Assembly (NCBI RefSeq): GCF_001419745.1
Contig: NZ_LIRJ01000072.1
Coordinates: 1 to 35,723, forward strand
Direction: 5' to 3'
DNA from: Streptomyces silaceus
GTDB lineage: Bacteria > Actinomycetota > Actinomycetes > Streptomycetales > Streptomycetaceae
Length of the DNA stretch: 35,723 nucleotides
Positions 24,337-35,723 of this stretch are shown piece by piece. The position numbers and the translations under genes are program-made. Each line of letters opens with the position of its first letter. Positions within the stretch are counted from its first letter, which is position 1. Under the pieces are notes generated by a model. The model saw only the letters and a program-made list of their open reading frames with translations, made no database searches and was not told the origin of the DNA.

Positions 24337-25764
24337 TTACGGCGCCGGAGCCTGTGCCGCGGTGGGGCTAACCCCCCTTTCCGGTCGGGGCCCGTCCCCC
24401 GGGGCGGGCGCGTTCCGCCGGGCCAGCGCCCAGTACAGCACCGCGGGCACCACGAGCCCCACGATCCACGAGACGTCCGCGCCGCCCAGCGGCTCGACCA
24501 GCGGGCCGGTGTAGAAGTGCGTGACGAGGAACGGCAGCTGGGCGAGGAGCCCGACGCCGTAGACGACCAGCGCGTCCCAGCGCCAGGCGCCGTAGCGGCC
24601 GCGCGGGTCGAAGAGCGCGGGGATGTCGTACCGCTCGCGCGAGATCAGGTAGTAGTCGACGAGGTTGATGGCCGACCAGGGCGTGAAGAACGTCAGCAGG
24701 AACAGCAGGAAGTCCTTGAAGGACGTCAGGAAGCTGTCCTTGCCGAGCAGCGCGACCGCCGTGCCCGCCACCATGATCAGGGCGATGTAGGCGGCCCGGC
24801 CGCGCGGTCCGAGCACCTTCTGGCCGCGGAATCCGCTGATGCTCGTGACCATCGACATGAAGCCGCCGTAGGTGTTGAGCACGTTGATGGTCAGCTTGCC
24901 GAGCGCGATCACGAAGTACAGGAACGACGCGATCAGGCCGGTGCCGCCGAGGCCGACGACGTAGCCGACCTGGTCGGCGAGGAACTTCTCGCCCGCGCTC
25001 GCCGCCACGAGCACGCCGAACGTCATCGACCACTGCGAGCCGACCGCCGAGCCCGACAGGGTCCACCAGAACGTGGCCCGGCCCGATGTCGTACGCGGCA
25101 GATAGCGCGAGTAGTCCGCGACGTACGGCCCGAAGGCGAGCTGCCAGGACGCCGAGAGCGAGACGGCGAGCAGGAACATCGGCAGGTCGAAGTGCGCGTC
25201 GGACAGGAGCGCGGAGAGGTCCACGCGGTCCAGGAGGCGGATGCCGAGGTAGACGAAGGCGAGCGCGCAGATCGCGCTCGCCACTCGGCCGAGCGCGTGG
25301 ATGACGCGGTAGCCGACGGCCGCCATGACGGCCGTGACCACGGCGAAGATCACGATGCCGGTGGTGTCGTCCGTGTGCGTGAGCTCGGCCGTGGCCTGTC
25401 CGGCGAGCACGCTGCCGCTCGCGAAGAAGCCGACGTACATCAGGATGACCAGGAGCAGCGGGACGACCGCGCCCTTGACGCCGAACTGGGCGCGGGACTG
25501 GATCATCTGCGGCAGGCCGAGCCGGGGGCCCTGCGCCGAGTGCAGCGCCATCACCGCGCCGCCCAGCAGATTGCCCAGCACGAGGCCCACGATCGACCAG
25601 ACCACGTCCCCGCCGAAGACGACGGCGAGGCCGCCCGTGACGACCGCGGTGATCTGGAGGTTGGCGCCGAGCCAGAGCGTGAACTGGCTGAACGCGGTGC
25701 CGTGCCGTTCGTCGTCCGGGACGACGTCGATGGAGCGCCGCTCCACCAGGTCTTCGGCTGCCAT
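24337..25764 (-). CDS. NCS1-family permease (nucleobase/hydantoin/cation symporter)
   Basis: Plasma-membrane symporter with about 12 helices, 475 residues, of the purine-cytosine permease branch of NCS1. The N-terminal cytosolic part (SIDVVPDDERHGTAFSQFTLWLGANLQ) is typical, as are GPRLGLPQMIQSRAQFGVKG in the first intracellular loop, FGPYVADYSRYLPRTTSG and FFTPWSAINLVDYYLISRE. Known members carry cytosine, allantoin, hydantoins, or vitamins. ATG at 25764 has GGGGAG 8 nt before it. It is divergent from the ammonia-lyase-like gene and shares its intergenic region, so it may import that enzyme's substrate. Proximity to hut genes makes histidine-related compounds possible; this is inference. Confidence 0.9.
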   Translation of the reverse strand: MAAEDLVERRSIDVVPDDERHGTAFSQFTLWLGANLQITAVVTGGLAVVFGGDVVWSIVGLVLGNLLGGAVMALHSAQGPRLGLPQMIQSRAQFGVKGAVVPLLLVILMYVGFFASGSVLAGQATAELTHTDDTTGIVIFAVVTAVMAAVGYRVIHALGRVASAICALAFVYLGIRLLDRVDLSALLSDAHFDLPMFLLAVSLSASWQLAFGPYVADYSRYLPRTTSGRATFWWTLSGSAVGSQWSMTFGVLVAASAGEKFLADQVGYVVGLGGTGLIASFLYFVIALGKLTINVLNTYGGFMSMVTSISGFRGQKVLGPRGRAAYIALIMVAGTAVALLGKDSFLTSFKDFLLFLLTFFTPWSAINLVDYYLISRERYDIPALFDPRGRYGAWRWDALVVYGVGLLAQLPFLVTHFYTGPLVEPLGGADVSWIVGLVVPAVLYWALARRNAPAPGDGPRPERGVSPTAAQAPAP

Positions 25765-25809
25765 GCCGTCCGCTCCCCTCGTGCTCGCGGGCCGGAGCGC
25801 CTTGCCCGG

Positions 25810-25855
25810 CTGCATATGGTCATGCAGAGTTCTTGCTGTCTGAATAAGTTGTCAA
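25810..25855 (-). promoter_or_regulatory. Promoter of the NCS1 gene with overlapping inverted repeat
   Basis: On the minus strand TTGACA (25855-25850) and AACTCT (25831-25826) are 18 bases apart, predicting a start near 25819. The inverted repeat CTGCAT-ATGGTC-ATGCAG (25810-25827) straddles that start, where a repressor would block transcription. TATTCAGA lies in the spacer (25846-25839) and recurs at the hutU promoter. The RpiR regulator encoded nearby is the obvious candidate binder. Confidence 0.5.
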
Positions 25856-25928
25856 TGCTCCGGCGTAAATCTCCGGCACCAAGTGGTCGATGACTGAGAC
25901 GGGATGTCTGGTTGAGGAGGAAAAGCGC

Positions 25929-27503
25929 GTGAAGTCGTCTCGTATCGCGGACAGCGCCGCCGCCGGCGCGGGAGCGGCGGCAGAAGTCGTCGTCCTGGAC
26001 GGCCGGGGCCTGCGGGTCGCCGACGTCGTACGCCTGGCCGGATCCGCCGCCCGGCCCGTGCCCGCCACCGACGGCATGAAGCGCGCCGAGGACTCCTGGA
26101 ACGCCGCACGCGAGATCGCCGCCTGGGGCCGCGTCTACGGCCGCTCCACCGGCGTCGGCGCCAACCGCAACGAGGACGTGCCCACCGAGGCCGCCGCCGA
26201 CCACGGCCTCAGGCTGCTGCGCTCGCACGCCGGGGCCATCGGCGCCGAACTGCCCGCCCGCCAGGTCCGCGCGATGCTCGCGGTCCGCGCCAATCAGCTC
26301 CTCGCGGGCGGCGCCGGACTGCGGCCCACCGTCGTCACCGCCCTCTGTCAGGCCCTGGAGACCGGCGCCCATCCCGCCGTCAACGAATTCGGCTCGGTCG
26401 GCACCGGCGACATCGCCGCCCTCTCCCAGCTCGGCCTCGCCCTCGCCGGCGAGCACCCCTGGCGGGGCGCCGGCACACCCCCCGAGCCCCAGCCGCTCGA
26501 CAACAACGACGCCCTCGCCCTGATCAGCAGCAACGCCCTCACCCTCGGCCAGTCCGCGCTCGCCCTGCACGAGCTGCGCGGCCTGATCGCCGCGACCCAG
26601 GTGGTGGCCGCGCTGTCCCTGACGGCGGTCGACGGCTCCTACGAGGCGTACGCCCTGCCCGTCCACGAGGCGCGCCGCCACCCCGGCTCGTACGCCGTCG
26701 CCGCCCGCATGCGGCGCCTGACCGGCGCCCCCGACCGGCCCACCCCGCCGCTCGGCCGCATCCAGGACCCCTACGGCTTCCGCTGCCTGCCGCAGATCCA
26801 CGGCCCCGCGCACGACGCGGCGAACGCCCTGGAGGACGTCCTCACCGTCGAGATCAACGCGGCCGCCGAGAACCCGCTGATCTGCCCCGAGGACCTCGCC
26901 GCCTACCACCACGGCGGCTTCTACCTCGCCCAACTCGCGCTGGCCCTGGACCACTTCAGGCTCGCCGTGACACAGGTCGCCCGCCTGTCCACCTCCCGCC
27001 TCTCCACCCTCAACGAACCGGCCTTCACCCGCCTGCGGCCCTTCCTCGCCGACGGCGAGACGGCCTCGTCGGGCGTGATGATCCTCGAATACGCGGCCGG
27101 GGCGGCCCTCGGCGATCTGCGCGCGTTCTCCGCGCCCGCCTCCCTCGGCCACGCGGTGCTCTCGCGCGGCGTCGAGGAGCAGGCCAGCTTCGCCTCGCTC
27201 GCCGCCCGCCAGACACTGCGCGCCTGCGCCGCGTTCCGGCTTGTGGTGGGGTGTGAACTGGTCGCCGCCGTAAGGGCGTTGAACCAGCGCGAACTGCGCT
27301 TCGAGCGCGACGTCCCGCTCGCGCGCGCCCATGAACTCGCCTCCGCCGCACTGGATCCGGAGCTCGCGGACCGGCCGCTGACGGATGATGTGACGGCGGC
27401 GGCCGGGCTGCTCGACCGGTTCACCGAACTGTGGGCGGCTCTGGGCGGCGGGCACACGACGGCCGCCGGGCGACCGGGCGCGCCGAAGGACCGGGTGTGG
27501 TGA
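25929..27503 (+). CDS. Histidine/aromatic ammonia-lyase homologue with non-canonical MIO triad
   Basis: 524-residue member of the HAL/PAL/TAL superfamily, probably cytosolic and tetrameric. Retained active-site elements are the catalytic tyrosine in YGRSTGVG (residue 70), Ser-His at 99-100 as in histidases, Asn202 in SSNALTLG, QDPYGFRCLPQ with Tyr282 and Arg285, and the late glutamates in VEEQASF. The cofactor site, normally GSVGASGDLAPL, reads GSVGTGDIAAL (155-165): one residue is missing and the Ala-Ser-Gly triad that cyclises to MIO becomes Gly-Thr-Gly. It may use a threonine-derived cofactor, be inactive as a lyase, or do another reaction. The GTG at 25929 follows GAGGAGG by 8 nt. RpiR follows and the NCS1 gene is divergent. 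I would not call it hutH without tests. Confidence 0.82.
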   Translation: MKSSRIADSAAAGAGAAAEVVVLDGRGLRVADVVRLAGSAARPVPATDGMKRAEDSWNAAREIAAWGRVYGRSTGVGANRNEDVPTEAAADHGLRLLRSHAGAIGAELPARQVRAMLAVRANQLLAGGAGLRPTVVTALCQALETGAHPAVNEFGSVGTGDIAALSQLGLALAGEHPWRGAGTPPEPQPLDNNDALALISSNALTLGQSALALHELRGLIAATQVVAALSLTAVDGSYEAYALPVHEARRHPGSYAVAARMRRLTGAPDRPTPPLGRIQDPYGFRCLPQIHGPAHDAANALEDVLTVEINAAAENPLICPEDLAAYHHGGFYLAQLALALDHFRLAVTQVARLSTSRLSTLNEPAFTRLRPFLADGETASSGVMILEYAAGAALGDLRAFSAPASLGHAVLSRGVEEQASFASLAARQTLRACAAFRLVVGCELVAAVRALNQRELRFERDVPLARAHELASAALDPELADRPLTDDVTAAAGLLDRFTELWAALGGGHTTAAGRPGAPKDRVW

Positions 27504-27513
27504 GGGGAACGGT

Positions 27514-28347
27514 ATGAGTGACAGTCCTGCGGCACGGCTGCAAGTGCTCTTCGAGGGGCACCGGCTCACGCCCACGCAGCGCCGCATCGCGCACTGCATG
27601 GTGCGGCGGGCGGCGGACGTGCCCTTCCTCTCCAGCGTCGAGCTGGCCGAGCTCGCCGGGGTGAGCCAGCCCTCGGTCACGCGGTTCGCGGTGGCGCTCG
27701 GCTTCGACGGCTACCCGGCGCTGCGCAGACACCTGCGGGACGTGGCGCCCGCGGAGGCGGCCGGCGGCGACGAGCTGAACGAGTACCAGCAGGCCGTCGA
27801 GGCGGAGATCGCGAACCTGCGGCACCTGGCGGAGGTCCTCGCGGACCCGGCGCCGGTCGAGCGGGCCGGACGGCTCCTCGCCGCCTCCCGCCCGCTGCCG
27901 GTCCTCGGCCTGCGGGCCGCCGCCTCCCAGGCGTACGGCTTCTCGTACTTCGCCGCCAAGGTCCACCCCGACGTGCGCCTCCTCGACGAGGGCGGCACGA
28001 TGCTCGCCGACCGCGTCGACGCGGCGGTACGGGCGGGCGCCACGGCCCTGCTGTGCTTCGCCCTGCCCCGCCACCCCCGCGAGGTCGTCGACGCGCTGGC
28101 CTACGCGCGCTCGGCGGGCCTCACGGTGGTCACGGTCGCCGACTCCGCGTTCGCGCCGGTCGCCGCGCACTCCGACCTCCTCCTGCCGGCCGCGGTCGGC
28201 ACGGGCCTCGCCTTCGACACGGCGTGCGCGCCGATGCTGCTCGGGCGGGTGCTCCTGGAGGCCATGTGCGACGGACTGCCGGACGCGCAGGCGCGCCTGG
28301 AGGAGTTCGACGTACGGGCGGCGGCGCGGGGCCTGTTCGTGGAGTGA
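27514..28347 (+). CDS. MurR/RpiR-family transcriptional regulator
   Basis: 277-residue DNA-binding regulator. The N-terminal winged helix-turn-helix (about residues 12-80) contains LTPTQRRIAHCMVRRAADVP and the recognition region LAGVSQPSVTRFAVALGFDGY. The C-terminal SIS domain (about 110-255) is a sugar-phosphate-isomerase fold that usually binds a phosphorylated or related small ligand (LPVLGLRAAASQAYGFSYF, VTVADSAFAPVAAHSD). ATG at 27514 follows GGGGAAC. It starts 11 bases after the lyase-like gene and is likely co-transcribed with it. It is the local candidate for control of the lyase-like gene and the divergent NCS1 gene, possibly through the inverted repeat at 25810-25827. Confidence 0.93.
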   Translation: MSDSPAARLQVLFEGHRLTPTQRRIAHCMVRRAADVPFLSSVELAELAGVSQPSVTRFAVALGFDGYPALRRHLRDVAPAEAAGGDELNEYQQAVEAEIANLRHLAEVLADPAPVERAGRLLAASRPLPVLGLRAAASQAYGFSYFAAKVHPDVRLLDEGGTMLADRVDAAVRAGATALLCFALPRHPREVVDALAYARSAGLTVVTVADSAFAPVAAHSDLLLPAAVGTGLAFDTACAPMLLGRVLLEAMCDGLPDAQARLEEFDVRAAARGLFVE

Positions 28348-28380: not shown

Positions 28381-29742
28381 TCAGTCCTCGCCCCGCGTCT
28401 TCAGGACCACCTTGTTGACCACCCACAGCCCGATCCCGATGGCGATCAGGACACCGGCGCGGATGTAGACCTCCGCGGGGCGGTCCGCCAGCGGGCTCGC
28501 GAGGATCAGGGCGGTGACCGCGCCGAGCACCGGCAGCACCGTCGGCGTACGGAAGTGCTTGTGGTCGACCGGGTCGCGGCGCAGCACCAGGACCGCCACG
28601 TTGACCACGGCGAACACGCACAGCAGCAGGAACGCGGTGGTGTCGCCGAGCCCCTCGATCTCGCCGGTGGAGACCAGGCCGATCGCGAGCAGCGAGACGA
28701 AGACGATGCCGACGATCGGGGTGCGGCGGCGGGGCAGGACGCGGCCCATGGCGCGCGGCAGGATGCGCTCGTTGGCCATGCCGTAGCAGAGCCGCGAGGC
28801 CATCATGATGTTGATCAGCGCCGAGTTGGTGACCGCGAACAGGGCGATCAGGGCGAAGAGTTTGTGCGGGAAGTCGACGCCGCCGGCCTTCACGACCTCG
28901 AGGAGCGGCCCGCTCGACCCCTCCAGGGTCTTGGAGTCGACCAGCAGGGACGACGCCAGCGCGACCAGGACGTAGATCGTGCCGGTCACCGCGACGCCGA
29001 TGAAGATCGCGCGCGGGAACGTACGGACCGGGTCCTTGGTCTCCTCGGCCATGTTCACCGAGTCCTCGAACCCGACGAAGGCGAAGAAGCCGAGGGCCGT
29101 GGCTCCCAGCACGCCGGTCATCAGGGCGTATCCGCTGCCGTCCGTCTCGAACTCGGTGAGGCGGGAGGGCTCGCCGTCGCCGCTCAGGACGGCGTACGCG
29201 CCGATCGCGAGGATGATCACGAGTCCGGTCAGCTCGACGAGCGTGAGGACCACGTTCGTCTTCACCGACTCCGAGACGCCCCGCATGTTCAGCGCCGCGA
29301 GCAGCACGATGAAGGTGATCGCGATCAGGGTCGGCGGCAGCGCGTCGTTCGTCAGCTCGCCGAGGTAGTCGCCGCTGAAGGCGCGGGCGGCGGCGCTCGC
29401 GGACGAAAGACCCGAGCACATCACCATGAAGGCGATGATGAAGGTGAGGAACGGCGTCTTGAACGCCTTCTGCGTGTAGAGCGCGGCACCGGCCGCCTTC
29501 GGGTACTTGCCGACCAGTTCGACGTACGACGCGGCCGTCAGGATCGCCACGACGAAGCCGATCAGGAACGGCAGCCACAGCGCGCCGCCGACCTTCCCCG
29601 CGACCTTGCCGGTGGTGGCGTAGATGCCGGTGCCGAGGATGTCGCCGATCACGAACAGGATCAGCAGCTTGGGGCCGATGGCGCGGTGCAGCGCCGGTTC
29701 TTCGGCCGGTGGTGCGGTGGTGGACGTGTCGGACGTCGTCAC
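28381..29742 (-). CDS. APC-superfamily amino acid permease
   Basis: 453-residue integral membrane transporter with about 12 helices, of the amino-acid/polyamine/organocation superfamily. The first helix carries the substrate-binding Gly-rich break GDILGTGIYATTGKVAG, helix 6 has the conserved ALGFFAFVGFEDSVNMAEE (Glu pair typical of the cationic-amino-acid branch), and ANERILPRAMGRVLPRR is the usual loop 8-9 motif. The GTG at 29742 has GGGGAGG about 5 nt before it; an upstream in-frame ATG at 29793 is less likely. The PLP-enzyme gene lies upstream on the same strand, 120 bases away, so they may form one unit. The context suggests histidine or a related amino acid as substrate, which is inference. 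Confidence 0.9.
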   Translation of the reverse strand: MTTSDTSTTAPPAEEPALHRAIGPKLLILFVIGDILGTGIYATTGKVAGKVGGALWLPFLIGFVVAILTAASYVELVGKYPKAAGAALYTQKAFKTPFLTFIIAFMVMCSGLSSASAAARAFSGDYLGELTNDALPPTLIAITFIVLLAALNMRGVSESVKTNVVLTLVELTGLVIILAIGAYAVLSGDGEPSRLTEFETDGSGYALMTGVLGATALGFFAFVGFEDSVNMAEETKDPVRTFPRAIFIGVAVTGTIYVLVALASSLLVDSKTLEGSSGPLLEVVKAGGVDFPHKLFALIALFAVTNSALINIMMASRLCYGMANERILPRAMGRVLPRRRTPIVGIVFVSLLAIGLVSTGEIEGLGDTTAFLLLCVFAVVNVAVLVLRRDPVDHKHFRTPTVLPVLGAVTALILASPLADRPAEVYIRAGVLIAIGIGLWVVNKVVLKTRGED

Positions 29743-29862
29743 AGGAGCCTCCCCCGAGAACGGGCCTGGAGGGAGGGTCTGCCCGTGATCCACGTCACCA
29801 TGCGCGAGTTGAGGAAGCTCAGAGCCTCCGGAGGGCGGGCCTCGGCGGCCCGGCCCCGGGCG

Positions 29863-31281
29863 TCAGAGGTCGCGCAGCGCGTCCCGCTCCGCGCCGCCGC
29901 CCGCCTCCGCCACGATCGCGTCGAGCGTCTGCGGCTCGCGCACGGTCGCGAAGCGCACGCCCTCGCCGGTCGCGGACGCCGCCGCCGAGAAGCCGTAGAC
30001 GCCGGGCCTGGCAAGGCTGTTGTACGAGTAGTGCTGCGCGAAGTAATAGGCGCCGGTGTCCAACGCCGCCGCGTAATCGCCCTGTTCGAGCAGCGGCAGC
30101 GGGCGGTTCTCGGCGAGCAGGTCGCCCGCGAAGCAGGCCGGGCCCGCGATGTCCTGGCCGACGGCGGGCCCGCTCTTGGGCCGCCCCTTCGCGTCGTACG
30201 CGGCGATCCGCAGCGGCCACGACGCCGGGGCGTACACGGTCCGGGTCGCCACCTGCACGCCCGCGTGCGTCACCGCGATCGGCCGGCCGCCCGCCTGCTT
30301 CGCGTACTCGACGAGGGCGAGGACCGTGCCGTGCTTGGCGAGCAGCGAGCGGCCGAACTCGGTGACCAGGCCGTACCGCCCGTCCAGCAGCCCCGGCACG
30401 CGGGCCTTGAGGCGGCGCGCGTACTGCGCGTGCGTCGGACTCTCCTCGTCCGAACCGAAGTTGACGGGCAGGCCGCCGCCGATGTCGACCGTGTCGACCT
30501 GCCGCCGCCCGGCGCGTTCGTTGATCTCCTCGGCCAGTTCGTACGTCGCCCCGACGCCCCGCACCATCATCTCCAGGGGCATGCCCTGCGACCCGGAGTG
30601 CGCGTGCAGCCGGGTCAGCCACGGCCGCTCCAGGAACGCCCGGACCACCCACTCCCGCGCACCCTCGTCGCGCAGCGGCACCCCGAACTTGGAGGTGGGC
30701 GTCGCCGTCGACAGCGCGCCGATGGAGCCGCCGCCGATCTGCGGGTTGACGCGGATGCCGACGGGGGAGCGGGACGGGGCCGACTGGACCATCGCGTCGA
30801 TGCGGGCCAGCTCCTGCGGGTTGTCCGCGTTCACGGCGATGCCGAGCGCGAGCGCCTCCCGCAGCTCCGCCCGGGTCTTGGCGGGCGAGTCCAGGACGGT
30901 GTCGGCGGGCGCCACCCCGGCGGCCCGCGCCAGGGCCAGCTCCCCGGGGCTCGCCACCTCGGCGCCGATCCCCGCCGAGCGCAGCAGCCGCAGGACCGGC
31001 ACGAGCGGGGTCGCCTTGACCGCGAAGGCGTGCAGGACGGGGGTGCCGGGCGGGGTGACCGCCTCGAAGGCGGCGCGCAGGGCGGCGGCGCTCGCGCGGA
31101 TGCCGGTGATGTCGAGCAGGCCCGCCACGGGGGCGGCGGGCCCGACGATCCCCTGTTCGACGGCGGCGCGGACGGCCAGGTCGCGGCGGGCCGCGGAGTC
31201 CGCGCCCGTGCCCGCGGCGGCCTCCGGCGGGATGACCTGCGTCCGGTCCGGTTCCTGGTGGTGTTCCTCGGCGTGCCCCAT
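29863..31281 (-). CDS. Fold-type III PLP enzyme, diaminopimelate/ornithine decarboxylase-like
   Basis: 472-residue cytosolic enzyme with an alanine-racemase-like barrel followed by a decarboxylase-type beta domain. PLP lysine at residue 89 (HAFAVKATPLV). The core has SKFGVPL near 197, the His of LHAHSGSQGM (226-234), Gly-rich phosphate loop VDIGGGLPVNF (266-275) and the TEFGRSLLA motif (307-315). The second active-site segment is GPACFAGD (380-387), where diaminopimelate decarboxylases have GPxCESxD; the Cys and Asp remain but the Glu-Ser is lost, so the substrate is probably not diaminopimelate. Late Tyr residues DTGAYYFAQHYSYNS close the pocket. It resembles the Y4yA-like branch, from memory. 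The ribosome site before ATG 31281 is poor. It is divergent from hutU. Confidence 0.85.
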   Translation of the reverse strand: MGHAEEHHQEPDRTQVIPPEAAAGTGADSAARRDLAVRAAVEQGIVGPAAPVAGLLDITGIRASAAALRAAFEAVTPPGTPVLHAFAVKATPLVPVLRLLRSAGIGAEVASPGELALARAAGVAPADTVLDSPAKTRAELREALALGIAVNADNPQELARIDAMVQSAPSRSPVGIRVNPQIGGGSIGALSTATPTSKFGVPLRDEGAREWVVRAFLERPWLTRLHAHSGSQGMPLEMMVRGVGATYELAEEINERAGRRQVDTVDIGGGLPVNFGSDEESPTHAQYARRLKARVPGLLDGRYGLVTEFGRSLLAKHGTVLALVEYAKQAGGRPIAVTHAGVQVATRTVYAPASWPLRIAAYDAKGRPKSGPAVGQDIAGPACFAGDLLAENRPLPLLEQGDYAAALDTGAYYFAQHYSYNSLARPGVYGFSAAASATGEGVRFATVREPQTLDAIVAEAGGGAERDALRDL

Positions 31282-31377: not shown

Positions 31378-31429
31378 ACAAGGTCACAGCGAGCAAGCTC
31401 ACAGCAGCTTCATGCGAGGAGGCATCGCC

Positions 31430-33094
31430 ATGTCAGGACCCCGCCCCGTTCGAGCGCCGCGCGGTACGGAACTGAGCGCCCTGGGATGGCAGCAGGAGGC
31501 CGCCCTCCGGATGCTCCAGAACAACCTCGACCCCGAGGTCGCCGAGCACCCCGACAAGCTCGTCGTCTACGGCGGCACCGGCAAGGCGGCCCGCGACTGG
31601 CGCTCCTTCGACGCGATGGTCCGCACGCTGCGGACCCTGAAGCAGGACGAGACGATGCTGGTCCAGTCGGGCCGTCCCGTCGGCGTCATGCAGACCCACG
31701 AGTGGGCCCCGCGCGTCCTGATCGCCAACTCCAACCTGGTCGGCGACTGGGCGAACTGGGAGGAGTTCCGCCGCCTGGAGCAGCTCGGCCTCACGATGTA
31801 CGGCCAGATGACGGCCGGATCCTGGATCTACATCGGCACGCAGGGCATCCTCCAGGGCACCTACGAGACGTTCGCGGCCGTCGCCGCCAAGAAGTTCAAC
31901 GGCACCCTGGCCGGGACGATCACCCTCACCGCCGGACTCGGCGGCATGGGCGGCGCCCAGCCGCTCGCCGTCACCATGAACGACGGCGTCGCCCTGTGCA
32001 TCGACTGCGACCCGCGCGCCATCGAGCGCCGCATCGAGCACAAGTACCTGGACGTGAAGGCCGACTCCCTGGAGCACGCCCTCCAGCTGGCCGTCGAGGC
32101 CCGCGACGCCCGCCGCCCCCTCTCCATCGGCCTGCTCGGCAACGCGGCCGACCTGCTGCCCCGCATGCTCGCGGAGTCCGCCCCGATCGACATCGTGACG
32201 GACCAGACCTCCGCCCACGACCCGCTCTCCTACCTGCCGACCGGCGTCGACTTCGACGAGATGCAGTCGTACGCCGCCAAGGACCCGGCGGGCTTCACGA
32301 CCCGCGCCCGCGAGTCGATGGCCACGCACGTCGAGGCCATGGTCGGCTTCATGGACGCGGGCGCCGAGGTCTTCGACTACGGCAACTCGATCCGCGGCGA
32401 GGCCCGGCTCGCGGGCTACGACCGGGCGTTCGCGTTCCCCGGCTTCGTGCCCGCCTACATCCGTCCGCTGTTCTGCGAGGGCAAGGGCCCCTTCCGCTGG
32501 GCGGCGCTGTCGGGCGAGGCGTCCGACATCCACAAGACGGACAAGGCGATCCTCGACCTCTTCCCGGAGAACGAGTCCCTGCACCGCTGGATCAAGATGG
32601 CCGGCGAGCGCGTCCACTTCCAGGGCCTGCCCGCCCGCATCTGCTGGCTCGGCTACGGCGAGCGGGACCGCGCCGGCGAGCGCTTCAACGACATGGTGGC
32701 GTCCGGCGAGCTCCAGGCCCCCCTCGCCATCGGCCGCGACCACCTGGACTGCGGCTCGGTCGCCTCGCCGTACCGCGAGACGGAGGCCATGCTCGACGGC
32801 TCCGACGCGATCGCCGACTGGCCGCTCCTGAACGCGATGGTGAACGTGGCCTCGGGCGCCTCCTGGGTCTCCCTCCACCACGGCGGCGGCGTCGGCATGG
32901 GCCGCTCCCTCCACGCGGGCCAGGTCTCGGTGGCCGACGGCACGAAGCTGGCGGGCGAGAAGATCCGCCGCGTCCTGACGAACGACCCCGGCATGGGCGT
33001 CATCCGGCACGTCGACGCCGGGTACGACATCGCGGAGTCGGTGGCCGACGAGAAGGGCGTACGGGTTCCGATGCGGGAGGGCGAGACGGCGTGA
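31430..33094 (+). CDS. hutU: Urocanate hydratase (urocanase)
   Basis: Second enzyme of histidine breakdown: converts urocanate to 4-imidazolone-5-propionate using tightly bound NAD+. The 554-residue length is the family norm. Residues [11 protein letters not shown] near the N-terminus, the NAD-binding region [17 protein letters not shown] and [25 protein letters not shown], and the family signature [18 protein letters not shown] (with the active-site cysteine) are all visible. The start at 31430 has GAGGAGG 7 nt upstream, better than an in-frame ATG at 31412. It has its own promoter and overlaps the next gene by GTGA. No oddity seen. Confidence 0.98.
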
Positions 33095-34365
33095 GCGACC
33101 AGCCCCCCGCGGCCGGCGACGCACCCGCCCGCCCCACCGGACAGGCCCCGTCCTTCCAGGAGATGTGGCGGGACCTGAAGCCCATCGGCCGGGACAGGGA
33201 CAGCGGAGGCTACCGCCGCTACGCCTGGACCGGCGCGGACACCGACTGCCGCGCCTGGTTCAAGGCACAGGCGGAGACCCGCGGCCTCACCTACGAACTG
33301 GACCGCAACGGCAACCAGTGGGCCTGGCTGGGCGACCCGGCCGCCGGGGACGCCGTCGTCACCGGCTCCCACCTGGACTCCGTCCCCGACGGCGGCGCCT
33401 TCGACGGCCCCCTCGGCGTCGTCTCGTCCTTCGCCGCGCTGGACGAACTCCGCTCCCGGGGCGCGGAGTTCACCCGCCCCCTGGCGATCGTCAACTTCGG
33501 CGACGAGGAAGGCGCCCGCTTCGGCCTGGCCTGCGTCGGCTCCCGCCTCACCGCGGGGCAGCTGACCATCGAGGCCGCGCACAGGCTCCGCGACGGCGAC
33601 GGCGTCTCGCTGCCGCAGGCGATGGAGGCGGCGGGCTACGACCCGTACGGCATCGGCGCCGACCCCGAACGCCTCGCCCGCATCGGCGCGTTCGTCGAGC
33701 TGCACGTGGAACAGGGGAGGGCGCTGGACCTGTCCGGCGACCCCGTCGGCATCGCCTCCGCCATCTGGCCGCACGGCCGCTGGCGCTTCGACTTCCGGGG
33801 CGAGGCCAACCACGCGGGCACGACCCGGCTCGTCGACCGCCGCGACCCGATGCTGTCGTACGCGGAGACGGTGCTCGCGGCCCGCCGCGAGGCCGAACTC
33901 GCGGGCGCGGTCGCGACGTTCGGCAAGATCTCCGTGGAGCCGAACGGCGTCAACGCCATCCCCTCGCTCGTGCGCGGCTGGCTGGACTCGCGCGCCGCCG
34001 ACCAGGCGACCCTCGACACCGTCGTCACCGGCATCGAGAAGGCCGCCCGCGAGTACGCGGAGCGGCACGGCATCGACCTCGACGTCGTCCGTGAGTCCTT
34101 CACGCCGGTCGTCGAGTTCGAGGACGCGCTCCGCGACGAGCTGGGCTCGATCCTGGGCGCCCGCGCGGAGCGCCCGCTGCCCGTCCTCGGCACGGGCGCC
34201 GGACACGACGCGGGTATTTTGTCCGGCTCGATCCCCACCGCCATGCTGTTCGTACGGAACCCCACGGGCGTCTCGCACTCCCCGGCCGAGCACGCCGCGG
34301 AGGACGACTGCCTGGCAGGGGTGACCGCACTGGCCGACGTACTGGAAGGGCTGGCGTGCAGGTGA
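33091..34365 (+). CDS. M20-family amidohydrolase (allantoate amidohydrolase-like) in the hut operon
   Basis: 424-residue di-metal hydrolase of the AllC/hydantoinase-carbamoylase family. Metal ligands are visible at His94 ([12 protein letters not shown]), bridging Asp105 (GAFDGPLGV), Glu139/140 ([11 protein letters not shown]), His205 ([10 protein letters not shown]) and a late histidine in [10 protein letters not shown]. The lid/dimer domain has [18 protein letters not shown], with the substrate-binding His and Arg. GTG at 33091 overlaps the hutU stop; the downstream hutF overlaps its end. Relatives are annotated as allantoate amidohydrolase. Inside a hut operon with HutF, which yields N-formylglutamate, it could instead hydrolyse N-formylglutamate to glutamate and formate in place of HutG. 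That is inference. Confidence 0.92.
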
Positions 34366-35723
34366 CGAGGGACGAGCGGGCAACGACGTACTGGCTGGAG
34401 CACGCCTGGCTCGACACGAACGTCGAGCCGGGCGTCGCGGTGGACGTGAGCGGCGACCGCATCACCGCGGTCCGCACGGGTGTCGACGCGCCGCCGCCCG
34501 GCGCGACGGTGCTGCGCGGACTGACGCTGCCCGGCCTCGCGAACGCGCACTCGCACGCCTTCCACCGGGCCCTGCGCGGCACCGTCCAGGTGGGCTCCGG
34601 CACGTTCTGGACGTGGCGCGAGGTCATGTACGCGGTGGCGGACCGCCTCACCCCCGAGACGTACCACGCGCTCGCGCGGGCCGTGTACGCGGAGATGGCG
34701 CTCGCGGGCATCACGACGGTCGGCGAGTTCCACTACCTGCACCACGGGCCGGGCGGCGCCCCCTACGCCGACCCCAACGCGATGGGCGAGGCCCTGATCC
34801 GGGCGGCGGCGGACGCGGGCGTCCGCATCACGCTCCTCGACACGGCGTACGTGGCCTCGGGGCTCCTCTCCGAGACGCGCGGCGAGCCGCCCAACCGCCA
34901 TCAGCTCCGCTTCTCCGACGGCACCACGGAGGCGTGGGCCGAGCGGGCGTCGCTCCTCAAGGACCGGGACCACGCGCGCATCGGCGCCGCGATCCACTCC
35001 GTGCGGGCCGTGCCCGCGGCGCAGTTGGGCGTGGTGGCGGAGTGGGCCTCGGCGCGCCGGGCCCCGCTGCACGTGCACCTCTCCGAGCAGACGGCGGAGA
35101 ACGACGCGTGCCGGGCGGTCCACGGCCGCACGCCGACGCAGCTGCTCGCCGACCACGGGGTGCTCGGCGCGCGCACCACGGGCGTGCACAACACCCACCT
35201 CACGGACGAGGACATCGCGCTGCTCGGCGGCTCGACCACGGGCACGTGCATGTGCCCGACGACGGAACGGGACCTGGCCGACGGCATCGGCCCCGCCGTC
35301 GCCCTCCAGCGGGCCGGCAGCCCGCTCTCCCTGGGCAGTGACAGCCACGCGGTGATCGACATCCTGGAGGAGGCCCGCGCGATGGAGCTGAACGAACGCC
35401 TCCGCTCGCACACGCGCGGCCACTGGACGGCGGCGGCGCTGCTGCGCGCGGCGACGGCGGACGGCCACGCGGCGCTCGGCTGGCCGGACGCGGGCGTCCT
35501 GGAGCCCGGCGCGCTGGCCGACCTCACGACGATCGCGCTGGACTCGGTCCGCACGGCGGGCCCGGTGCCGCGCCTCGCCGCGGAGACGGCGGTCTTCGCG
35601 GCGACGTCGGCGGACGTCCGGCACACGGTGGTCGGGGGACGCCATGTCGTACGCGACGGCACCCACACGCTGGTGGAGGACGTCCCGTCGGCCCTGGCGG
35701 AGGCGGTGGCGGCCCTCAGAGAC
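34356..35723 (+). CDS. hutF: Formimidoylglutamate deiminase, 3' end outside window
   Basis: Amidohydrolase-superfamily zinc enzyme converting N-formimidoyl-L-glutamate to N-formyl-L-glutamate and ammonia. 456 codons are visible and the stop is not in the window; the family is about this long, so little is missing. Metal ligands: His-x-His in GLANAHSHAFHRALRG, His in PLHVHLSEQTAEN, and Asp in LGSDSHAVIDILEEAR; VHNTHLTDED holds the catalytic histidine. GTG at 34356 has GGAAGG 6 nt before it; GTG at 34362 (overlapping the upstream TGA) is an alternative with poorer spacing. It is coupled to the M20 gene. The next gene expected from other Streptomyces is imidazolonepropionase. Confidence 0.94.
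   Translation, partial: MQVTRDERATTYWLEHAWLDTNVEPGVAVDVSGDRITAVRTGVDAPPPGATVLRGLTLPGLANAHSHAFHRALRGTVQVGSGTFWTWREVMYAVADRLTPETYHALARAVYAEMALAGITTVGEFHYLHHGPGGAPYADPNAMGEALIRAAADAGVRITLLDTAYVASGLLSETRGEPPNRHQLRFSDGTTEAWAERASLLKDRDHARIGAAIHSVRAVPAAQLGVVAEWASARRAPLHVHLSEQTAENDACRAVHGRTPTQLLADHGVLGARTTGVHNTHLTDEDIALLGGSTTGTCMCPTTERDLADGIGPAVALQRAGSPLSLGSDSHAVIDILEEARAMELNERLRSHTRGHWTAAALLRAATADGHAALGWPDAGVLEPGALADLTTIALDSVRTAGPVPRLAAETAVFAATSADVRHTVVGGRHVVRDGTHTLVEDVPSALAEAVAALRD

Follow-up and report, generated by a model that had tools for sequence, protein, structure and literature searches.

What reaction is left to a protein of the histidase fold that lacks the triad of the 4-methylideneimidazole-5-one (MIO) cofactor? 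The question is raised by a lyase gene of Streptomyces silaceus, found on a 35,723-nucleotide contig (NZ_LIRJ01000072.1, assembly GCF_001419745.1) that is, as a whole, the window analysed here. Judging from sequence comparison, the enzyme very probably acts without MIO, and it probably performs the elimination of a betaine. With less assurance, we favour hercynine (histidine betaine) as the substrate, from which an MIO-free trimethylamine-lyase would give urocanate. A sequence-only reading of the locus had wavered between a threonine-derived methyl-MIO and MIO-free chemistry on a histidine-like substrate; the latter gains support from our analysis and can be narrowed to a likely elimination of a quaternary amine.

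A histidase fold with a shortened loop

The window lyase matches PF00221 at 365 bits (cut-off 27.3), which places it in this fold. Its score with the hutH equivalog TIGR01225, in contrast, is 279.1 bits for a cut-off of 539.15. Its nearest named homologues are from Streptomyces. The structure predicted with AlphaFold2 has a predicted local distance difference test (pLDDT) score of 90.6; in a Foldseek search, its top match by a narrow margin is ergothionase (6s7j, 25% identity), and structures of histidine ammonia-lyase (HAL) match it with template modelling (TM) scores of 0.82-0.90. Further PF00221 genes with full-length loops occur in the same genome (C92 and C269 with CSGD, C545 with TSGD), so the window lyase is probably not the housekeeping histidase. 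The last of them (L002) reads GSLGTSGD, its Thr-Ser-Gly differing from the usual MIO triad in the first position.

The window lyase has a loop of seven residues, GSVG-T-GD, where canonical enzymes have eight (GSVG-AS-GD, or G-S-V-G-x-S-G-D), and it lacks the Ala/Cys-Ser-Gly triad. The sequence-only reading had described this loop correctly. It aligns without a gap with SSIGEGD of ergothionase. No displaced Ala-Ser-Gly turned up when the lyase was scanned for a small residue followed by Ser or Thr and Gly: the only other matches are STG at residues 73-75 and SSG at 380-382, the second of which corresponds to an unremarkable Asn-Ser-Gly segment in HAL. GSVGTGD is shared by all 120 nearest homologues, and a frameshift or base error is ruled out by their agreement.

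A wider search pattern matches the loop motif in 71 of 80 Streptomyces loci. Within the genus, 70 of 150 genomes, counting the genome of the window itself, contain matches at E <= 1e-60, among them relatives at 46-59% identity. More distant relatives in Actinomycetota (33-58% identity; 40% for two) carry GTGD, GIGD, GTAD, GQAD, GAGD or GASD, and those on Rhizobiaceae plasmids GSVGYLIA or GAGD.

Residues that accompany the short loop

Two other motifs follow the length of the loop in our alignment. GVG, which replaces GFG of HAL, is present in 52 of 53 short-loop rows and in none of the 47 long-loop rows. The column of HAL Asn195, which we take to be a residue contacting MIO, holds Ser in 51 of the 53 short-loop rows and Asn in 47/47 long-loop rows. 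The window lyase has Ser200 there, in the column of the Asn of the HutH NGT motif. This corrects the assignment of Asn202 as the conserved active-site Asn: the Asn of Pseudomonas putida HAL aligns with Ser200, and Asn202 comes two positions later, as in ergothionase. The other residues listed as kept are indeed in place, namely Tyr70, Ser-His 99-100, Tyr282, Arg285 and the late Glu (Glu416), together with Gln279. With HutH, the window lyase thus shares the fold, Tyr70, the Ser-His pair, Gln-Asp-Pro-Tyr, Arg285, Glu416 and the probable product; it differs by the missing triad, by Ser for Asn195, by its TIGR01225 score and by the betaine importers that neighbour its relatives. Tyr70, His100, Arg285 and Glu416 are invariant over 73 aligned sequences, ergothionases included.

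The same three traits (a loop one residue short, GVG for GFG and S-x-N for N-G-T) occur in ergothionase, the ergothioneine trimethylamine-lyase of Treponema denticola (PDB 6s7j/6s7q), another PF00221 protein with the Tyr, His, Arg and Glu conserved and GEGD in its loop. Ergothionase has been solved, and PMC13405746 reports it to be free of MIO.

We calculated a quick tree with the trait columns removed, on 80 of 100 rows (19 near-copies and the degenerate paralogue L121_13189 were dropped). One branch, with a Shimodaira-Hasegawa-like approximate likelihood ratio test (SH-aLRT) value of 96, divides 43 from 37 rows, the short-loop from the long-loop ones. The window lyase and the ergothionases belong to separate clades on the same side of this MIO/no-MIO branch. 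Pairwise ratios of nonsynonymous to synonymous substitution (dN/dS) of the window lyase with five orthologues are 0.17-0.21; its gene is under strong purifying selection. Altogether, the evidence suggests that ergothionase is one member of a widespread and often misannotated MIO-free group, which a three-part sequence signature identifies.

Linkage to betaine-type importers

In the 80 Streptomyces loci, which belong to the window clade, an importer of the ProV/ProW/OpuC type is usually encoded divergently to the lyase. Of these loci, 61 have importer genes of all three kinds <=6 kb from the lyase; the other 19, some of them cut by contig ends, have no kind (11), one kind (6) or two (2). The importer beside the relatives is composed of an ATPase, two permeases and a substrate-binding protein (SBP) of the ProV/ProW/OpuC/EgtU type, the class of EgtU and of the glycine-betaine (ProX/OpuC) importers. 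The ATPase of locus L006 falls in the betaine/proline/choline class (TIGR01186, 306 bits, slightly below the cut-off of 327), and the structures closest to the SBP of L010 are EgtU and ProX.

Outside the window clade, importer genes accompany 15 of 20 short-loop loci from Actinomycetota and Rhizobiaceae and none of 41 canonical loci (Fisher p 2e-10, for hand-picked loci). The 15 are L092 (ATPase only, on a short contig), L117, L118, L120, L122-L129, L182, L183 and L187; no importer genes were found at the short-loop loci L116, L119, L121, L142 and L151, and short-loop locus L102 is outside the 20 counted. A match meant at least 230 bits for an ATPase, or at least 80 for a permease or SBP. With these chosen thresholds, the 7-8 kb flanks of the 38 canonical controls and of three canonical plasmid loci contain no importer; at one of the latter, L184, an ATP-binding cassette (ABC) ATPase scores 175 bits, below the importer threshold. 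The 40 control loci were hand-picked in list order, mostly at least 8 kb from the contig start and with several suitable rows skipped; 38 are canonical and two short-loop. The plasmid loci are nine, hand-picked among 60 of 812 records; six of them have a short-loop lyase, and the other three (L184, L185, L186) are canonical. Canonical HAL genes in the clusters of L123 and L129 were excluded from the controls because a short-loop lyase is present in the same cluster. The importer references included proteins of L117, L118 and L128, where the importer was also found with Streptomyces references alone. At L182, the importer genes are annotated independently in the plasmid record as opuA, opuBD, opuBD and opuC.

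Importer linkage, and not HutU linkage, discriminates the short-loop loci. The evidence as a whole suggests that absence of the MIO cofactor goes with betaine substrates.

A probable route through urocanate

Some 4-8 kb downstream of the window lyase come hutU, an amidohydrolase gene and hutF (Table 1). HutU of the window is canonical and fails the thiourocanate hydratase models NF058530 (647 against 930 bits) and NF058531; the amidohydrolase probably catalyses an N-formylglutamate or N-carbamoyl-type step. At 59/80 Streptomyces loci, HutU is likewise present, at a distance of 3.1-9.4 kb from the lyase.

Similar sets occur at distant short-loop loci. On the Arthrobacter plasmid L118 (extended in L188), an AllC-like gene, four importer genes, HutU and the lyase stand together, with HutF beyond; L123, L128 and L129 combine the lyase with the importer, HutU and HutF; L121 has HutU, an AllC-like gene and HutF, without importer. 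In L118, L121 and L128, HutU passes the canonical TIGR01228 and fails both thiourocanate models. Proximity of HutU likely indicates the product of the lyase, not its leaving group.

Proposed reaction

In MIO enzymes, the cofactor would react with the amine or the ring of the substrate, making ammonia a leaving group. An alpha-trimethylammonium group lacks a free electron pair, is unable to enter into the MIO-amine adduct and would already leave well, so a betaine lyase could dispense with MIO. What would remain for the enzyme is to bind the betaine and abstract the beta proton, for which Tyr70, His100, Arg285 and Glu416 are retained. Hercynine would then be split into urocanate and trimethylamine, and urocanate would pass through HutU and the ordinary Hut route to glutamate. 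The genome encodes a homologue of EgtD, the hercynine synthase (382 bits, cut-off 290.9), which makes hercynine a likely native metabolite.

Several observations weigh against this reading. There are no betaine-type importer genes on the contig, and the best matches to the importer ATPase in the genome are 62 and 65% identical. Instead, the window lyase adjoins an NCS1 permease, an arrangement shared by L017 and L018, where the importer is missing too. Uptake may thus proceed through this permease, or the substrate could be the cell's own hercynine. HutU is in range at 28 of the 38 canonical controls too, which leaves HutU linkage alone as weak evidence. Other substrates must be assumed for several of the short-loop relatives. 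Lastly, the strong conservation of threonine near the window implies that Thr159 probably has some role.

In its broadest form, our proposal is that MIO-free lyases form a single ancient lineage within the histidase fold, devoted to betaines, that takes trimethylamine off aromatic amino-acid betaines without a cofactor and hands the products to Hut enzymes, coenzyme A (CoA) enzymes or flavin oxygenases, the window member being a hercynine lyase. We see this generalisation as evenly balanced between right and wrong.

If the hercynine assignment is true, the lyase would provide a first step for hercynine catabolism and a little-known feeding route of soil bacteria. It would connect this precursor of ergothioneine with the breakdown of histidine and with trimethylamine release in soil, and ergothioneine-making actinomycetes could recycle or scavenge hercynine. 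PF00221 proteins labelled histidine ammonia-lyase, as many relatives of the window lyase are, would sometimes be something else. The system also offers a clean test of why ammonia, unlike trimethylamine, requires MIO in order to leave. No title among the listed matches from open-licence PMC literature names a hercynine lyase, and one may exist elsewhere. As for ergothionase, it has been treated as a rare exception: PMC13405746 gives it a limited number of genera and a prevalence far below that of choline trimethylamine-lyase, in a count that left out divergent homologues.

Other substrates and other chemistries

The window lyase could itself be an ergothionase, eliminating trimethylamine from ergothioneine, or from an S-oxidised or S-methylated form of it, to give thiourocanate. 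The two proteins have the three-part signature in common, Foldseek puts ergothionase first, the ergothioneine importer EgtU belongs to the same broad type as the importers of the relatives, and EgtD, encoded in the genome, is a step of ergothioneine synthesis as well. Yet we find this identity unlikely. Besides the low identity, GTGD for GEGD and the separate clade, the window lyase has Tyr388 for Lys384, which reportedly is among the residues essential to ergothionase. Lys is present in this column in 15/15 rows of the ergothionase clade and in one other row, the degenerate paralogue L121_13189; the window clade reads EY. The neighbourhood indicates urocanate and not thiourocanate, with hydratases that fail the thiourocanate models and an amidohydrolase below the cut-off of ErtE (NF058540, 274 against 520 bits). 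The importers of the relatives differ as well. Specificity of the EgtU pocket for ergothioneine needs Gly244 and Phe293, according to PMC9732360. In an alignment with EgtU, the SBP of L010 shows Phe in the place of Gly244 and Tyr in that of Phe293. Located by pattern in 79 SBP matches, the place of Gly244 is taken by Phe in 57 and Tyr in 1 (21 unmatched), and that of Phe293 reads PEY in 68 (11 unmatched). With Phe and Tyr at these two determinants, the SBP of L010 is not of the ergothioneine-specific type.

The substrate might instead be another aromatic betaine, derived from tyrosine, tryptophan or an N-methylated histidine, the nearness of hutU being synteny only. Importer-linked short-loop relatives are indeed found beside a CoA transferase, a hydratase and a dehydrogenase (L117, L182) or flavin monooxygenases (L183), from which it follows that the short-loop family is not restricted to imidazoles; the Streptomyces paralogues L122, L124 and L126, 54-58% identical, have importer genes and no HutU in range. 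For the window lyase, we consider this doubtful: the lyase, importer, HutU and HutF cluster closely even at the distant loci L118 (with L188), L123, L128 and L129, and the histidase Ser-His pair is retained.

A methyl-substituted MIO, formed from Gly-Thr-Gly in an unusual histidine or aromatic ammonia-lyase, would explain why Thr is kept in 120/120 nearest homologues and in 117/120 of the set obtained with the Arthrobacter query, and it would suit the retained fold and most of the HAL active-site residues. The Thr159 column, however, varies over the 53 short-loop rows (Thr 30, Glu 15, Ala 3, Gln 3, Ile 1, gap 1), and the companion residues are nearly always unchanged, whatever fills it: Ile in L120, Gln in L127-L129, Ala in L151 and Glu in the ergothionases. 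The loop is also one residue short, the Asn of HAL is Ser, and canonical CSGD lyases are already encoded in the genome. We therefore rejected this half of the sequence-only reading as the principal explanation, and regard it as highly improbable.

Nor, in all likelihood, is the protein a non-catalytic binding or regulatory relative, as the missing triad of the parent family and the adjoining regulator gene might suggest, given the four invariant residues, the purifying selection and the importer linkage in relatives.

Upstream element and neighbouring genes

Table 1. Positions of the lyase gene, its motifs and the neighbouring features in the window
Feature	Position	Strand	Remarks
NCS1-family permease	24337..25815	-	divergent from lyase; PF02133 190 bits; TIGR00800 129 bits, below 353 cut-off
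Palindrome-like element, TGCATATGGTCATGCA + GAGTTCT	25811..25833		candidate operator
MIO-less lyase gene	25929..27503	+	open reading frame (ORF), GTG start, 524 aa
TGVG, residues 74-77	26148..26159	+	Val76 replaces Phe of HAL TGFG
Shortened MIO loop GSVG-T-GD, residues 155-161	26391..26411	+	Thr159 = 26403-26405
ISSNA, residues 199-203	26523..26537	+	Ser200 at HAL Asn position, Asn202 two positions on
Glu387-Tyr388	27087..27092	+	Tyr388 in column of ergothionase Lys384
RpiR/MurR-family regulator	27514..28347	+	directly 3' of lyase; PF01418 43.5 bits
hutU, canonical urocanate hydratase	31412..33094	+	TIGR01228 899.9 bits, cut-off 375
AllC/HydC-like amidohydrolase	33091..34365	+	NF006770 666 bits, cut-off 372
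hutF, formimidoylglutamate deiminase	34362..35723	+	GTG 34362, reaches contig end; NF006681 693 bits, cut-off 362; TIGR02022 547 bits, cut-off 413

The start codon of the lyase at 25929 is closely preceded by GAGGAGG, and an in-frame ATG lies at 25890. Further upstream, the palindrome-like element has a GTCATGCA core that recurs 5' of the lyase gene in 64/80 Streptomyces loci (L006-L085). Its consensus, CTG(T/C)ATAnCGTCATGCAG followed by AGTTCT and TGAATAGnTTGTCAA, is strongly conserved, and the element is likely an operator, through which the RpiR protein may control the lyase gene. The element and the start codon (ATG) listed for the NCS1 permease overlap, so the permease gene probably begins further in.

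The ORF cluster of the regulator (c8) is represented in 48/80 Streptomyces loci and that of the NCS1 permease in 17/80. Two genes of the minus strand sit between the regulator and hutU: an amino acid permease (28381-29793; ORF cluster in 15/80 loci) and a lysA-like pyridoxal phosphate (PLP) decarboxylase (29863-31281; 204 bits for a cut-off of 298; ORF cluster in 52/80 loci).

Other short-loop lyases

The Rhizobiaceae plasmid lyases of L117 (7968-9515), L182 (6881-8422) and L187 (7001-8389) have GSVGYLIAT(S/A)H replacing the MIO loop and stand beside a betaine importer. L187 carries no annotation; the clusters of L117 and L182 also contain genes for an acyl-CoA transferase, a hydroxyacyl-CoA dehydrogenase and an enoyl-CoA hydratase, and perhaps encode a tryptophan- or tyrosine-betaine route. 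On a Sinorhizobium plasmid (L183, 390-8476), a lyase with GSIGAGDL is accompanied by a betaine-type importer, two flavin-dependent oxidoreductases and an ornithine-cyclodeaminase-like enzyme.

In L122, L124 and L126, the open frame of the lyase spans 592-656 codons and aligns with the window protein as two separate segments; beside the lyase stands the SBP gene, with the remaining importer genes about 7 kb off. The actinobacterial short-loop lyases of L142 (8387-9778, SSVGASDL) and L151 (7954-9360, GSVGAGDL), without importer in range, likely have different substrates. Finally, the PF00221 paralogue of L121 (11912-13189, minus strand), which adjoins another short-loop lyase and HutU, has AVGAAGE in its MIO loop, LAGAP for LNGT and Lys at the Lys384 column, and looks degenerate or repurposed.
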